Origin: a virus
Length of the DNA: 23,152 bases
Reading direction: 5' to 3' (one strand)
IMG/VR virus record: IMGVR_UViG_3300046694_000526
Location: 1 to 23,152 of that record
The position numbers and the translations under genes are program-made. Numbering within the stretch: position 1 is the stretch's first letter; each line of letters starts with the position of its first letter. Below, piece by piece: positions 13,437 to 20,592 of the stretch. The notes beneath the pieces were generated by a model. It was given only the letters and a program-made list of their open reading frames with translations. It did not search any database and was not told the DNA's origin.

Positions 13437-13754
13437 ATGGACGCACTAGCTTTATCTATTTTAACATCCGCCACTTACGACCTGTTGAAAACAGCAACAA
13501 AATTCACGGCAAAAACAATTAAATCCGAATTAAAGAAATGGATTTTGGATGATGATACCGCTGAAAAGATTGTCAGTGAGCTAGATTCACTGCAACTGAC
13601 TGATCAGATGAGCGAAAAAGCGATCAAGGAACGAATTGAAAATACAAACATACCTAAATTGCTGGAAAATCTTCAACCATCACTTCAGACCACGAACATC
13701 ACCCAAACGCATTATGGCTCCGGTGACAATGTAGGTGGCAACAAGAACTGTTAA
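13437..13754 (+). CDS. Small helical protein, first accessory gene of the cI operon
   Basis: A 105-aa protein with no recognised enzyme motif. Residues 1-85 are predicted helical by inspection, with a hydrophobic start (MDALALSILTSATYDLLK) then charged amphipathic helices (IKSELKKWILDDDTAEKIVSEL). The tail carries ITQTHYGSGDNVGGNKN, nearly the same as a segment at the N-terminus of the next protein (IIQNHYGAGDNVGTK). AAGGAA lies about 7 nt before the ATG, 13 nt after the cI stop. The shared tail motif suggests the two products contact the same partner or each other, with this one as adaptor or regulator. It sits at the start of a strongly AT-rich segment unlike the surrounding phage DNA. Confidence 0.78.
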   Translation: MDALALSILTSATYDLLKTATKFTAKTIKSELKKWILDDDTAEKIVSELDSLQLTDQMSEKAIKERIENTNIPKLLENLQPSLQTTNITQTHYGSGDNVGGNKNC

Positions 13755-13767
13755 GGGAATTCAGTAC

Positions 13768-16700
13768 ATGGATAGTTCTAATACGGTCGACATCATACAA
13801 AACCACTACGGTGCTGGCGACAACGTCGGGACCAAGTATTATCAAGCATTTCAAACATTAACACCCCAACACCTTGTAAAACCAGTCGGTATGGTTTTCT
13901 CGAGCATCAGAGACAAAGACAATGCCAAGGCTCTGATACAGTTGGAAATCATACAAAGTACAGAAAATCTTGATGACCGTGCTAGATCTATTCTGAGAAT
14001 TCTTTCCATACATTTGGGTCTAGCCGACTCAGCTTCAGCCGACAATTATCCAGCTTTAATCAATTTTTTGTCGTCTGCAAGCTCCGATTTAGAATTCGAT
14101 ATTTGTTTAGCTGCGTTACTTCGTTTAGATCTAAAAAATGGAAAAACCGCAGATGCTGCCGAAAGGTATAAGCTGGCAGAAAAAATTGGCGAATACTCGA
14201 AAGAGATATTCTACGAACTAATAGCTGATTCCGACACCCTTGAGACTGAATTTAATCAAAAAAAACTGTTGATGAAAGAGGGCGAATTCAGCGGAATTAT
14301 ATTAGGCGCCATTCGGGTAGAAAATCATCAGTTACTCAGCTTGGCAACAACTCGACTAAGCGAAACATTCCCATCTTACAACAGCCATGCCTACTCTTTA
14401 ATTTGTGAAACCCTCAAAATAAATCCTGAGCTTTCCGAAAACCAAAGCTACTTCATATCAAGAACCACAAAAGAAAAAATTGATAAAATATTATTACAAA
14501 CAGAGAAACTCATATCTGAATCAAGGGGAAAAGACCCTCGATTATTTGATATAGCAGTGTCCCTTTTACAATATACGGGATGGAGCTACCCATCGGTTAC
14601 TGATACCTGTTGGGCTTATGTAAGTGAATTTGAAAAAAAATATCCCGAATACGCAACACGACTCCATATTGCCTACAACGAAGACTTCAGCAACGCACCT
14701 GACGTTCTAAAAAAAATTGGCCAAGCCAAATCAAATAGTTATAATCGCCAAGAAATCGCAAAGACAATAATAAACAGTCAAAATATTGATTCAGATACTT
14801 TCCCGCTTCTATTTGAAACTTTAACACCAGCGGAAATGCGCCAATGGTTAAGAGCGGGCGGTAAATTCTCGATTAACGATAATTTCGAACGCAGTTTCAT
14901 TGAGTTATTACTGTATTCCTCTGCGATAACGAGCAAAGAAGAGAAACTCGCGATTGAAGAGCTACGAGTACGATGCAAGGAATTTGTTGATCTACATATA
15001 GATCTTATAAAAAAAATAAATCAGCATCTTTTGCTTCGACTCTGCACCAACCTCGACAAACTTAAATTACCATCAATATGCTGCGCAATACTTAAACCTT
15101 TACTACCCGCACAGGATTTATGGGTTTCTCCCGTACTGACAATTTATCTTAAATCACTTTTAGATACTCATCAGCTAATCACTCTTGAGTCTATATTATC
15201 AAATCTGCACCCAGATGAGTGGAATGCCACGGTTTGGCAAATTAAGGCGATGGCTCATGAGCAAGCCGGCGATTTGCACGGATCATTGAAAGCGGCAGAA
15301 CAAATGTCTGCGTTGGCTCACGGCGATTTGGCCGCAACAAGTTACTATGCTCACTTGGTAAAAAAAAGCGGCGCGACTGACTTGGAAGTCAGTGAAATAT
15401 TCAAATCTATCCCAGACAGCTCTCTTGCTTATTTTTCTAACGAGGCAGTTCGCGCCGTTCTACTTATTGCTAACTTCCAAAGTTTTCAGCGTGCAGAGAA
15501 AATCCTGCTTAATTGGTTCACGCACAACCCTAGCAGCTGCGCAACGGCTATAACACACTTTCACTTCAACCTTATTGAACGTGAAAACTTGATTACCTCC
15601 CCTAAACTTGAGCAGTATATTGGCGGCTTCAAATACTCAAAAGAAGGCGAAGAATTTACCAAGCTCGCAGTAAAAAACAAACCTAACGACAACGACTTTG
15701 TATTAGATTCCGACTCTCCTTTAGCCAAACTTCTAGCCACGATGAACATTGGCGAGACTACAACTCATAACATGCAGGACGTTACACTATTAGAAAAATT
15801 AGATCCATATACTACAATATTTAGATTAGCATTGAAAATTCGCGATTTAAATAATGATGGTTCGGACGTGTTTTCCGTTTTACATGTGCCAGAGGACCCT
15901 GAGGACTTAGTAGAGGTTCTTAAACGAAAACTGGGAGAGAACAGAGTTCAACAAGAGGAACGCCATAACATCGTAGCAGATGCAACACTCCCTATTTTTT
16001 TTAAGGGCCACAACTTAAATGGGGGAAACTCAATAAAAGCAGCACTTGAACAACTCACAAACAGATCATCATCGAAGCTGAATCTTCCGAACTTTGGAAT
16101 TCAAAACCCTGGCACCGCATTAATTGATCCATATACTGCATGCTATCTTGGCTTAACAGGTTTGGCGTACAGCATCGCAAATCACCCTACAAAATTCCAA
16201 ATAACTGCGGAAACTCGGGCAGCAATTCATAACTGGCTATCCGAGGTACGAAGTCCTTCTTACATGACAATAGGCACCAATGAGCACGGCCAGCTCATTA
16301 GAACCACCGGCGAGGACATAGCAAAACAATTTAAACAGTTGATGGACGGATTACAGATCATATTAGATTCTACTGACACAGTGTATCCTCGGCTCTACAA
16401 TCTTCCCGAGCAATTAATTCAGTTCGAGCATTTTTTTGACATTGCTACATTTTCCACTATCAAGTCATCCTTAGCCAATAACACTCCATGGCTTTGCATT
16501 GATGAAACTTTCGCGTACCTGCTTAACTCTTTGAACTACCCATTGATGCCCGCCTACAGTTCTTTTACAGAAATGGGCTCAGAACTTGACTACACTCAGA
16601 AATCTCCTGGATTATTATTACATGCAATTAATTCTACCCCCTACGCACTGACCTTCAGGGATTTATTACTACTTACGACTGAAGAAAATGCCAATGCAGA

Positions 16701-17091
16701 CTATGCTCTAGCAGAAATATTAAAATCTAACAAACCTTTTCTGGCTGAAAATACAAACTCAACCGAAACCATTACTAGATATTTAAGCATCCTTATTTTC
16801 AAAGGATACAAACAAAAACATCTTGACGATATAAATTGGGATCATGATCCAAGTAAATCTAGATATTTTGAAAAGGCATTTAACGCTTGCTTAGAAATAA
16901 TTATTAGTTCCTCACCTGAGCTTAAGGCCGAACATAAAATTGCTTATTTTTTTTACAACTTCACGAAAACATACGTAATGCTAAAAGCCACTCATGAGTT
17001 TGTTGCCAACCAAATTTCTAAATTTTGTAATGGGCACTTTTTGTCCATTGAATCTATAAATCTTCATCTTGAAACGTTAAGAGGTAGTTAA
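13768..17091 (+). CDS. TPR-like / GreAB-C / PIN-domain protein, predicted anti-phage effector
   Basis: A 1107-aa protein. The ATG at 13768 has AGGGA 9 nt upstream; a GTG at 13735 is rejected. Order: the HYGAGDNVG motif within the first 25 residues; a long run of helical, TPR-like repeats to about residue 600; a segment around 620-725 with SDSPLAKLLATMNIGET (Ser-Pro near 650-651), matching the SPLGxALLGxxxGD signature of the GreA/GreB C-terminal domain; and a PIN-like nuclease region near 783-950 with Asp787 (TALIDPYTA), Glu815 (TAETRAAI) and Asp912-Glu913 (WLCIDETFAYLL). This is the architecture of the computationally predicted TPR-GreAB-C-PIN conflict systems (from memory). An RNase that senses stalled or foreign transcription is plausible. 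Strongly AT-rich, so recently acquired cargo. Confidence 0.75.
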   Translation: MDSSNTVDIIQNHYGAGDNVGTKYYQAFQTLTPQHLVKPVGMVFSSIRDKDNAKALIQLEIIQSTENLDDRARSILRILSIHLGLADSASADNYPALINFLSSASSDLEFDICLAALLRLDLKNGKTADAAERYKLAEKIGEYSKEIFYELIADSDTLETEFNQKKLLMKEGEFSGIILGAIRVENHQLLSLATTRLSETFPSYNSHAYSLICETLKINPELSENQSYFISRTTKEKIDKILLQTEKLISESRGKDPRLFDIAVSLLQYTGWSYPSVTDTCWAYVSEFEKKYPEYATRLHIAYNEDFSNAPDVLKKIGQAKSNSYNRQEIAKTIINSQNIDSDTFPLLFETLTPAEMRQWLRAGGKFSINDNFERSFIELLLYSSAITSKEEKLAIEELRVRCKEFVDLHIDLIKKINQHLLLRLCTNLDKLKLPSICCAILKPLLPAQDLWVSPVLTIYLKSLLDTHQLITLESILSNLHPDEWNATVWQIKAMAHEQAGDLHGSLKAAEQMSALAHGDLAATSYYAHLVKKSGATDLEVSEIFKSIPDSSLAYFSNEAVRAVLLIANFQSFQRAEKILLNWFTHNPSSCATAITHFHFNLIERENLITSPKLEQYIGGFKYSKEGEEFTKLAVKNKPNDNDFVLDSDSPLAKLLATMNIGETTTHNMQDVTLLEKLDPYTTIFRLALKIRDLNNDGSDVFSVLHVPEDPEDLVEVLKRKLGENRVQQEERHNIVADATLPIFFKGHNLNGGNSIKAALEQLTNRSSSKLNLPNFGIQNPGTALIDPYTACYLGLTGLAYSIANHPTKFQITAETRAAIHNWLSEVRSPSYMTIGTNEHGQLIRTTGEDIAKQFKQLMDGLQIILDSTDTVYPRLYNLPEQLIQFEHFFDIATFSTIKSSLANNTPWLCIDETFAYLLNSLNYPLMPAYSSFTEMGSELDYTQKSPGLLLHAINSTPYALTFRDLLLLTTEENANADYALAEILKSNKPFLAENTNSTETITRYLSILIFKGYKQKHLDDINWDHDPSKSRYFEKAFNACLEIIISSSPELKAEHKIAYFFYNFTKTYVMLKATHEFVANQISKFCNGHFLSIESINLHLETLRGS

Positions 17092-18248: not shown

Positions 18249-18414
18249 GGAATACGCCCGCCAGATCATCGCCATGCGGACACGAGAGGAGCGCAACGCC
18301 GCGCTCCTCGAAGTGCCCGAACATCTGCGCGAGCTGACCAGAACGCACTGCTTGAACGCCTGGAACCACCCGGTCAGAAAACAACGCAAGGAGGCCCAAC
18401 AAAGCCATGAGTAA
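18235..18414 (+). CDS. Small hypothetical protein, 59 aa
   Basis: Starts at GTG 18235 (MTWPREYARQIIAM), overlapping the KilAC gene end by 14 nt. The sequence TREERNAALLEVPEHLRELTRTHCLNAW is a clean amphipathic helical protein, of a kind common in Pseudomonas phage early operons. The start is uncertain because no strong ribosome site precedes the GTG; an ATG at 18274 is the alternative. Its stop overlaps the next gene start by 8 nt. Function unknown. Confidence 0.62.
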   Translation: MTWPREYARQIIAMRTREERNAALLEVPEHLRELTRTHCLNAWNHPVRKQRKEAQQSHE

Positions 18415-18724
18415 CACAGCACAAAACCCGCTCCGCCTGCACCCGGCACCGGAGTCAGCCACCGTCGAACTGCTTTACCGCATCTTCGGCGACGTCCTGA
18501 TCCCGCTCGACAAAGTGCGCGAGCAGTACTTCCGCAACCTCAACGAGCAATCGTTCGTGGCCGAGATCAGCAGCGGCCGCATCCAGCTCCCCATCACCAC
18601 GCTGGACACCAGCCGCAAGGCACCGAAGTACGCCCACATCCGCCACGTCGCCTCACTGATCGACATCCGCGCCTACAAGGCCGACGAAGACATGCAGCGA
18701 CAGCAGGACGAAACAACCGAGTAA
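18407..18724 (+). CDS. PrtN-like (pyocin activator family) protein, copy 1
   Basis: A 105-aa protein. ELLYRIFGDVLIPLDKVREQYFRNLNEQSFVAEISSGRIQLPITTLDTSRKAPKYAHIRHVASLIDIRA follows the pyocin-activator PrtN family pattern (LL...IPL..V...YF...F...I.SG.I.LP.......KA...H...LA..ID). AGGAGG lies about 13 nt before the ATG. PrtN activates pyocin genes after SOS in Pseudomonas; prophage relatives are small DNA-binding regulators, possibly acting on phage promoters or excision. A second, diverged copy lies at 20323-20592. Confidence 0.8.
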   Translation: MSNTAQNPLRLHPAPESATVELLYRIFGDVLIPLDKVREQYFRNLNEQSFVAEISSGRIQLPITTLDTSRKAPKYAHIRHVASLIDIRAYKADEDMQRQQDETTE

Positions 18725-18782: not shown

Positions 18783-19202
18783 ATGACTGCAATTCAGATC
18801 TGCGCGCTCATCGTTCTGATCGTTTTCGCCGGACTACTCGTCTGGGCAGGCTACTTCATGGGCCATAGCGACGGCATGTCCGCTGGCATGAAGGAAGGCG
18901 ACGAGATCCAGCGTGCAGAAAGCGCCAAGACGGTTCGCGAATTAAGGGCATCTCTCGACTTCATCAGGGCCGATCACTCCCGCTTGTCGCAACACTGCAA
19001 ACGGCTGCAGATAGCGATGGCATTCGGAGGCCCCGAGCGCTTAGCGCTGCTGGAAATCGCCGAGAAACTTCGCATTGCCGCCGAGACATTCAGTGCATTC
19101 CGCACAGGCAAAAAACTGGAACGCGACACTCGCGCACTGCGCGACCGAGCTCTCGACATGGCTGAGCAACTGGCTCCCTTTAATGTGGGAGACGCCGCAT
19201 GA
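18783..19202 (+). CDS. Single-span membrane protein with coiled coil, 139 aa
   Basis: The N-terminus has one membrane span (IQICALIVLIVFAGLLVWAGYFMG, residues 4-27) followed by a long charged helical region (VRELRASLDFIRADHSRLSQHCKRLQ; LLEIAEKLRIAAETFSAF) likely to form a coiled coil. AGGAG lies 10 nt before the ATG. It ends in an ATGA overlap with the next gene (19199-19202). Function unknown; such proteins are frequent hypotheticals in Pseudomonas prophage early operons. Confidence 0.72.
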   Translation: MTAIQICALIVLIVFAGLLVWAGYFMGHSDGMSAGMKEGDEIQRAESAKTVRELRASLDFIRADHSRLSQHCKRLQIAMAFGGPERLALLEIAEKLRIAAETFSAFRTGKKLERDTRALRDRALDMAEQLAPFNVGDAA

Positions 19203-19558
19203 GCGAGATCCTTACCCACTTCAACACCCACCGCGACACGGCATACGCCTCACCAGCGGCGGACGAACCAACGCGCAATCGAAACTCGGAGGAAAGCGGC
19301 ATGCAAATGGACCAGCACAACACCCAATGCACGACCGCTTTGCTCTGCGAAGCAGTGAGCGTCGACACGCTAGAAACAAACAGCCTCTGCTGCGCAGCAG
19401 CAGGCATTATTGCTCCTTCGAGCAGCACCACCGAGGCGTTTATACCCCACGAAAAGCTGCGCGAGGCAGCCACACCCTATGCAACGCTAACCGCTCAGGA
19501 TCGCCCGCCCGCGCAGCTTATTCAGGGGTATAAGCGTCCTTCATTGGAGGCCGCGTGA
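19199..19558 (+). CDS. Hypothetical protein, 119 aa
   Basis: Low-complexity, Ala/Ser/Thr-rich sequence with several cysteines (TALLCEAVSV, NSLCCAAAG) and no recognised domain; probably partly disordered. It is coupled to its neighbours: ATGA overlap at the start, and at the end its TGA lies inside GTGAATG, which also contains the GTG start of the methyltransferase frame and precedes the ATG of the second frame. The coding status rests on these junctions and the open frame; the C-terminal GGAGG serves as ribosome site for what follows. Confidence 0.6.
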   Translation: MSEILTHFNTHRDTAYASPAADEPTRNRNSEESGMQMDQHNTQCTTALLCEAVSVDTLETNSLCCAAAGIIAPSSSTTEAFIPHEKLREAATPYATLTAQDRPPAQLIQGYKRPSLEAA

Positions 19559-20313
19559 ATGAGCTGGCTCTTTTCGCAGGCGCTGGTGGCGGAATACTCG
19601 GCGGCCACCTCCTCGAGTGGCGCACCGTTTGCGCCGTTGAGCGTGATGCCTACGCTGCACAGATTCTGGCGCAACGACAAACCGATGGACTGCTCCCGCT
19701 TTTCCCGATTTGGTCTGACGTGTGCAGTTTTGACGGACGACCATGGCAAGGCCTTGTTGACGTGGTTTCGGGAGGATTTCCTTGTCAGGACATCTCGGTT
19801 GCAGGCAATGGCCTGGGTATCGCCGGCGCCCGCTCCGGACTGTGGCGGCAGATGGCACGAATTACCGATGAGGTACGACCGCGCTACGTCGAACTGGAGA
19901 ACTCACCATTGCTTGTGGGAAGAGGACTTGCCGTGGTGCTCGGTGACCTTGCCGAAATGGGGTATGACGCGCGATGGGGTGTTATCGGAGCGGCTGACCT
20001 CGGTGCCCCTCATCAGCGGGATCGGATCTGGCTCATCGCAGAAGACACGCGTCAGGCGGTGGCCAACACCGGTGGCGAGCATGGCAAAGGGATCCTCACC
20101 CGCCGCACTGACTCGCCGCTCCGGTGCCGACCGCTCGAACGATCGCCTGGATCACGCCGTGATGGCACTGGATGGTGGTCATCTGAACCCGGAATGGATC
20201 GAGTGGCTGATGGGGTGGCCCATCGGATGGACCGACTTAAAGCCATTGGGAACGGACAGGTTCCAGTCGTGGCAGCAGCAGCATTCGACTTATTTTCAGG
20301 AACAGCGTCATAA
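19555..20313 (+). CDS. DNA cytosine-C5 methyltransferase (frame A)
   Basis: A 252-aa protein from GTG 19555. C5-methyltransferase motifs in order: I (LALFAGAGGGILGG, residues 4-17), IV with the catalytic Cys77 (SGGFPCQDIS), VI (ELENSP, Glu115-Asn116; ENV in most enzymes), VIII (QRDRIW, 154-159) and X (KAIGNGQVPVVAAAAF, about 229-244). All core motifs are present, but the target-recognition region is very short, so the enzyme is smaller than typical (320-400 aa). It should transfer a methyl group from SAM to cytosine and may protect phage DNA from restriction. GGAGG lies only 4 nt upstream of the GTG. The whole gene is overlapped in the +1 frame by another open, protein-like frame. Confidence 0.82.
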   Translation: MNELALFAGAGGGILGGHLLEWRTVCAVERDAYAAQILAQRQTDGLLPLFPIWSDVCSFDGRPWQGLVDVVSGGFPCQDISVAGNGLGIAGARSGLWRQMARITDEVRPRYVELENSPLLVGRGLAVVLGDLAEMGYDARWGVIGAADLGAPHQRDRIWLIAEDTRQAVANTGGEHGKGILTRRTDSPLRCRPLERSPGSRRDGTGWWSSEPGMDRVADGVAHRMDRLKAIGNGQVPVVAAAAFDLFSGTAS

Positions 20314-20326
20314 GGAGGCCGCATGA
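19559..20326 (+). CDS. Protein overprinted on the methyltransferase gene (frame B), 255 aa
   Basis: An ATG-started frame covering almost exactly the methyltransferase gene, shifted by +1. It begins MSWLFSQALVAEYSAATSS and ends with NPEWIEWLMGWPIGWTDL (residues 210-227), segments I recognise from proteins annotated as hypothetical in many phages (memory, unverified). GGAGG is 8 nt before the ATG, better spaced than for the methyltransferase GTG. Its TGA overlaps the next gene's ATG as ATGA. Open for 255 codons without a stop. Trp-rich, no catalytic motif seen. Either a true second product of overlapping genes or a long open frame forced by the methyltransferase codons; the junctions favour the former. 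Confidence 0.55.
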   Translation: MSWLFSQALVAEYSAATSSSGAPFAPLSVMPTLHRFWRNDKPMDCSRFSRFGLTCAVLTDDHGKALLTWFREDFLVRTSRLQAMAWVSPAPAPDCGGRWHELPMRYDRATSNWRTHHCLWEEDLPWCSVTLPKWGMTRDGVLSERLTSVPLISGIGSGSSQKTRVRRWPTPVASMAKGSSPAALTRRSGADRSNDRLDHAVMALDGGHLNPEWIEWLMGWPIGWTDLKPLGTDRFQSWQQQHSTYFQEQRHKEAA

Positions 20327-20592
20327 ACACTTTGTTTCTTCTAATGGCACAATATGATGGCCAAGCAGTTATTCCTCTTATTTCCATATGCGAGGATTAT
20401 ATGGGATTAACGGTCGAAAAATTCAAACACAAATGCTTATCCGGCGAGATTGATATCCCTATCATCCGCTTAGGAGCTAATAGCCAAAAAGCCGCACTTG
20501 GCGTTCATATAAAAGACCTCGCTGAGTATATTGATCGCCAGAGGGAGAAAGCACGCCAAGAGCATCTAAAACTTATGGGAAGAGCGGCCTGA
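20323..20592 (+). CDS. PrtN-like (pyocin activator family) protein, copy 2
   Basis: An 89-aa protein. FLLMAQYDGQAVIPLISICEDYMGLTVEKFKHKCLSGEIDIPIIRLGANSQKAALGVHIKDLAEYIDRQREKAR is a near-textbook PrtN-family sequence, closer to the family pattern than copy 1. AGGAGG lies 4-5 nt before the ATG, and the ATG overlaps the end of frame B as ATGA. It is clearly more AT-rich than the genes before it, so it may have a different origin from copy 1. Last gene of the rightward operon; a hairpin follows. Confidence 0.88.
   Translation: MNTLFLLMAQYDGQAVIPLISICEDYMGLTVEKFKHKCLSGEIDIPIIRLGANSQKAALGVHIKDLAEYIDRQREKARQEHLKLMGRAA

Follow-up and report, generated by a model that had tools for sequence, protein, structure and literature searches.

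We analysed a window of 23,152 nucleotides (IMG/VR record IMGVR_UViG_3300046694_000526, positions 1 to 23,152, taken here at its whole length), which is a 23-kb virus record with tailed-phage head genes, primase/helicase, repressor and integrase. Within it, two open reading frames of 252 and 255 codons lie almost exactly on top of each other on the same strand. Frame A encodes the catalytic part of a DNA cytosine-5 (C5) methyltransferase and frame B is shifted by +1. The heptamer GTGAATG holds the stop of the upstream gene together with the starts of A and B, and the stop of B (TGA, 20324-20326) overlaps the ATG (20323) of the next gene. A sequence-only reading of this DNA had already placed both frames, the GGAGG, the upstream stop and the ATGA overlap, and all of these positions were confirmed. 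The features are as follows.

19199..19558, plus strand: upstream open reading frame, 119 aa, no family match; its stop TGA (19556-19558) lies inside GTGAATG
19546..19550, plus strand: Shine-Dalgarno sequence GGAGG, 4 nt from the start of A and 8 nt from the start of B
19555..20313, plus strand: frame A, C5-cytosine methyltransferase catalytic subunit, GTG start, 252 aa; PF00145, phrog_363
19559..20326, plus strand: frame B, +1 gene, proposed recognition/motif-IX subunit, ATG start, 255 aa; phrog_1008
20059..20196, plus strand: approximately A codons 169-214, where A is predicted to be disordered and is relaxed or neutral while B is strongly constrained
20060..20074, plus strand: WPTPV module of B, single copy, approximate position
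20174..20242, plus strand: motif-IX-like segment of B, GGHLNPEWIEWLMGWPIGWTDLK (B residues 206-228), coded over EPGMDRVADGVAHRMDRLK of A
20242..20265, plus strand: motif X of A (AIGNGQVP), in a different frame from the IX-like segment of B
20323..20592, plus strand: next gene, PrtN/excisionase-like (PF11112), ATGA overlap with the stop of B

The spacing of GGAGG to the two starts, 4-5 nt for A and 8-9 nt for B, is kept in most relatives. PrtN/excisionase-like genes (PF11112) stand on both sides of the methyltransferase region (18407-18724 and 20323-20592). Positions 13735-17091, between the phage repressor and this region, encode a protein of 1118 aa that contains a PIN-TPR-GreABC domain and may serve in defence or be cargo.

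Openness and selection in the two frames

A long open frame inside another gene is by itself modest evidence. Shuffling codons with protein A and its codon usage kept left B open in about 3 % of trials for a single gene, so that one genome proves little, and we rejected single-gene openness as sufficient proof of B. Relatives are more informative. The sequence-only reading had set frequent stops in frame B of homologues against its own proposal; instead B is open, to within 50 codons of the end of A, in 76 of the 77 loci retrieved with A alone. The +2 frame of these genes carries at least 9 stops in each (mean 16.4) and the antisense frames of the loci carry 4.6-6.9 on average. Among 80 loci retrieved with the B alignment no A or B is interrupted except by end-trimming, and each B found sits on an A. 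In a few other loci A is interrupted with B still open (L093/L008, L116/L016, L117 and L150), which could be sequencing error or decay of A first.

Selection was measured by classing substitutions according to their effect in each frame, with Jukes-Cantor correction and no transition bias. Counting from pairs and not on a tree, with an SS class that has few sites and is noisy, 49 independent pairs give NN/SN of 0.24 (0.22-0.26) for A and NN/NS of 0.33 (0.30-0.37; a range of 0.28-0.33 is also given) for B. Flanking genes in their own frame served as controls, and for their +1 frame NN/NS comes to about 0.7-1.6; some automatically chosen ORFs proved to be antisense or overlapping frames, with an own-frame ratio near 1, and were left out. 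A sliding view finds constraint in both proteins over codons 1-75 and again over 101-150, separated by a stretch in which A alone is constrained (codons 76-100; A 0.09, B 1.08). Further on, B alone is constrained over codons 176-200 (A 0.94, B 0.15) and mainly B over codons 201-225 (A 0.66, B 0.18), before constraint returns mainly to A at motif X (codons 226-250; A 0.32, B 0.59). Constraint is thus complementary, B being tightest where A is neutral and predicted to be disordered (codons 176-215).

Two further observations bear on B directly. The mycobacteriophages of the SG4 group provide an internal control, having frame B closed over A codons 1-22/25 and a first start codon near codon 43-47; in these few sequences A-silent, B-changing substitutions occur at a rate of 0.277 over codons 1-45, outside B, versus 0.058 beyond. 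The start of B is fixed through the codon choice of A. Codon 2 of A, where it encodes Asn, is always AAT (62 of 62), against a background of 42 % (AAC being used in 58 % elsewhere in these genes), and codon 3 is GAG in 65 of 66 against 39 %. Even the four exceptions at these codons give ATG, GTG or TTG for B, and the fixed AAT and GAG are accounted for by preservation of the B start. The dual coding proposed from the sequence alone is therefore supported: purifying selection is found in both frames and not in A only, and on this comparative evidence both frames are real, conserved and selected.

A catalytic part and its +1 partner

In C5 methyltransferases the target-recognition domain (TRD) and motif IX usually sit between motifs VIII and X of one chain, although this is not universal and split enzymes exist. 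Protein A matches PF00145 (E 5e-29) as well as phrog_363, and has motifs I-VIII and X, including PCQ and ENV/ENS, on a Rossmann-like fold. Its profile aligns to M.HhaI only up to motif VIII. No TRD and motif IX were found between motifs VIII and X, nor does A of the relatives show a motif IX pattern; a mixed alignment of distant A proteins held no conserved stretch usable as a search query. AlphaFold2, run on A with 66 sequences, gave high confidence for residues 1-168 and 235-248 and predicted disorder at 169-234. The model superposes on M.HhaI with a Z of 20.7 over 187 of 327 M.HhaI residues; the matched part comprises the catalytic domain plus the motif X helix and omits the small domain. 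As modelled, A leaves no space in which a TRD or motif IX could fit.

Protein B belongs to a phage family, with E 5e-22 to phrog_1008 and E 4e-54 and 8e-74 for distant +1 frames. The segments of B that the sequence-only reading linked to phage hypothetical proteins are real and match phrog_1008, 26627, 35493 and 27243. Its motif-IX-like pattern is LNPxWVEWLMGWPxGWT, here LNPEWIEWLMGWPIGW; LNPEWIEWLMGWPIGWT lies near the C-terminus in the manner of motif IX, with WPTP modules before it. This B has one module, 66 representatives have up to four, and mean B length rises with their number (253 aa for one, 268 for two, 296 for three and 320 for four). The longest series, about eight tandem W.TP...D modules, occurs in L289 (1501-1977 and downstream), where a B of 434 codons overlies an A of 518 aa and may comprise several recognition modules. 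The motif-IX region of a canonical methyltransferase matches phrog_1008 weakly (E 0.005), and the B profile has no match among PDB sequences. AlphaFold2 modelled B alone poorly (pLDDT 55, pTM 0.26), so that no fold search was made with the model and the fold of B and its identity as a TRD are unproven; such a model may fit a subunit that folds on its partner, and proves nothing. Homology of B to a true TRD is proposed here from the short IX-like segment and the architecture.

Other arrangements of the same parts exist. Five Vibrio/Alteromonas plasmid enzymes (e.g. WP_240306742) join an A-like part (motifs I-VIII and X) in frame to a further domain that closes with GGLHPEFCExFMGYP; hhalign aligns this domain with the B family, at the IX-like segment, with E 2.3e-6 over only 26 columns. 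Their +1 frame is closed and full of stops, the N-terminal 75 codons of B have no counterpart in them, and relatives of the fusion were sought among viral and genome contigs and not found. In canonical C5 enzymes with an in-frame motif IX (L260, L263) the +1 frame is likewise closed. In the methyltransferase relatives L290-L295 (including L291 and L294) the ORF with motifs I-VIII stops early, and motif IX (LNTKFVAWLMGLPEGW), the WxTP modules and motif X are spread over different frames, an arrangement that looks like a reshuffling of pieces from frame to frame. A second dual-coded region, at L270 2937-3200 and in L297-L376, carries the YLSPKACQGILRRAEKRGK peptide family. In 74 of 80 loci these peptides are encoded +1 to a long ORF for a C5 methyltransferase of canonical type, and the substitution rates of the region (NN 0.106, NS 0.319, SN 0.160, SS 0.611) suggest that the +1 peptide is under selection.

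The overlap system is widespread, occurring in phages of Proteobacteria, Actinobacteria, Bacteroides, cyanobacteria and Paenibacillus and on a Leptospira plasmid. Phages infecting Pseudomonas, Salmonella, Acinetobacter, Vibrio and Microcystis show full-length overlap, as does the Leptospira plasmid; in those of Mycobacterium, Microbacterium, Synechococcus, Bacteroides, Stenotrophomonas and Paenibacillus B is shorter and lies within approximately the final three quarters of A. PHROG keeps the products apart, as phrog_363 for A and phrog_1008 for B, and the annotated product differs by record: A in Acinetobacter ABMM1, B in Pseudomonas phPA-G and both in Paenibacillus Shelly. In NC_041909 gp55/gp56 (L267) and other P. 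larvae phage records both ORFs are labelled DNA methyltransferase, one as an "internal gene". No paper among those searched describes the phage overlap, and the relevant passages of the P. larvae phage papers do not take up the internal gene.

A two-subunit reading, its alternatives and known split enzymes

The reading we favour, at a probability of roughly 0.8, is that the two overlapping frames encode the subunits of one DNA cytosine-5 methyltransferase, which would act in the manner of M.EcoHK31I, a natural precedent made of two polypeptides. Protein A would fold as the catalytic domain, with AdoMet binding, the PCQ nucleophile loop, ENS, motif VIII and the C-terminal motif X helix, and would have a disordered, unselected link where other enzymes have the TRD and motif IX. 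Protein B, starting 4 nt downstream of the A start, would be translated from the same ribosome-binding site, read the target and supply the missing recognition part and motif IX, and its binding to A would give the active enzyme. The phage would mark its own DNA with this enzyme, most likely against host restriction, as phage methyltransferases generally suggest. We read the two proteins as one enzyme because A lacks the recognition domain and motif IX and B has a motif-IX-like segment. The sequence-only reading spoke of two protein families in overlapping frames; both are real, but they are probably two parts of one enzyme and not unrelated.

A broader proposal remains tentative, at somewhat less than even odds: that full-length same-strand dual coding is old and widespread in phage C5 methyltransferases, that B serves as a full, interchangeable specificity subunit, its count of WxTP modules (one to about eight) varying along with the overlapping disordered stretch of A, and that a second type independently gained a +1 partner (the YLSPKACQGILRRA family).

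Unlikely, though the best placed of the alternatives, is that B, though genuinely encoded in the overlap, has a separate function, for instance anti-restriction or control of A, and is not a subunit. Its want of a recognised fold or PDB relative agrees with this, as does the constraint on the N-terminal 75 codons that the fusions do not share; the complementary gap in A and IX-like segment in B, the joining of A to a B-like domain in the plasmid fusions, and the finding of each B on an A all point the other way. We consider it very improbable that ribosomes shift from A to B near codons 150-175 and make one A-B hybrid (I-VIII, then the recognition part and IX): A, but not B, is indeed neutral just past these codons, yet such a hybrid needs neither the B start codon and N-terminal half, which are conserved and selected, nor motif X of A, which is still constrained past the gap. 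That B is a by-product of codon constraints in A and not a gene is scarcely credible, since the chance openness of a single gene of such composition and the part of B likeness between distant relatives that is forced by A are outweighed by selection in B with flanking-gene controls, loss of A-silent changes only inside B, the fixed B start codon and constraint on B where A is neutral.

Lengthy overlaps between genes on the same strand are rare, and most of those claimed rest on a single genome. The two-subunit locus offers hundreds of relatives from several bacterial phyla and a clear two-frame selection record, with each frame free in turn. The fused, nested and full-length forms all exist, so the origin of overlapping genes becomes directly testable. 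Our results also suggest that annotation of phage genomes often captures only one half of an enzyme, or places its halves in separate records, and that an annotated methyltransferase expressed alone may give inactive protein.

Among known enzymes the closest comparison is M.EcoHK31I, which targets YGGCCR and for which Lee, Kam and Shaw in 1995 are said to have described ORFs of 309 and 176 aa that overlap in different frames, both needed in vitro. The two systems share motifs I-VIII and X in one subunit (here A) and, as reported for M.EcoHK31I, overlapping frames. Unlike M.EcoHK31I, A and B are about 250 aa each, start 4 nt apart and overlap nearly completely; they are phage-borne, and no restriction enzyme was recognised adjoining them. 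In M.EcoHK31I motifs I-VIII and X lie in the large polypeptide, only IX in the small one, and the TRD is reported in the large subunit (PMC3404938). Protein A has no ordered TRD, and we therefore describe the locus as working like M.EcoHK31I and not as a member of its type. In M.AquI, too, two polypeptides complete one C5 enzyme (PMC3404938), but there the cut is positional (I-VIII / IX-X) and leaves motif X in the small subunit, whereas here X is in A. Paenibacillus phage Shelly gp55/gp56 has the same A and B families and frame relation (gp55 phrog_363; gp56 phrog_1008, E 8e-74); gp56, the "g55 internal gene", starts within A, unlike the full-length B here, and the record gives it no role. 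The Vibrio/Alteromonas fusions likewise combine a catalytic part with I-VIII and X and a B-like segment, in one polypeptide without overlap, where the phage locus uses two overlapping frames.
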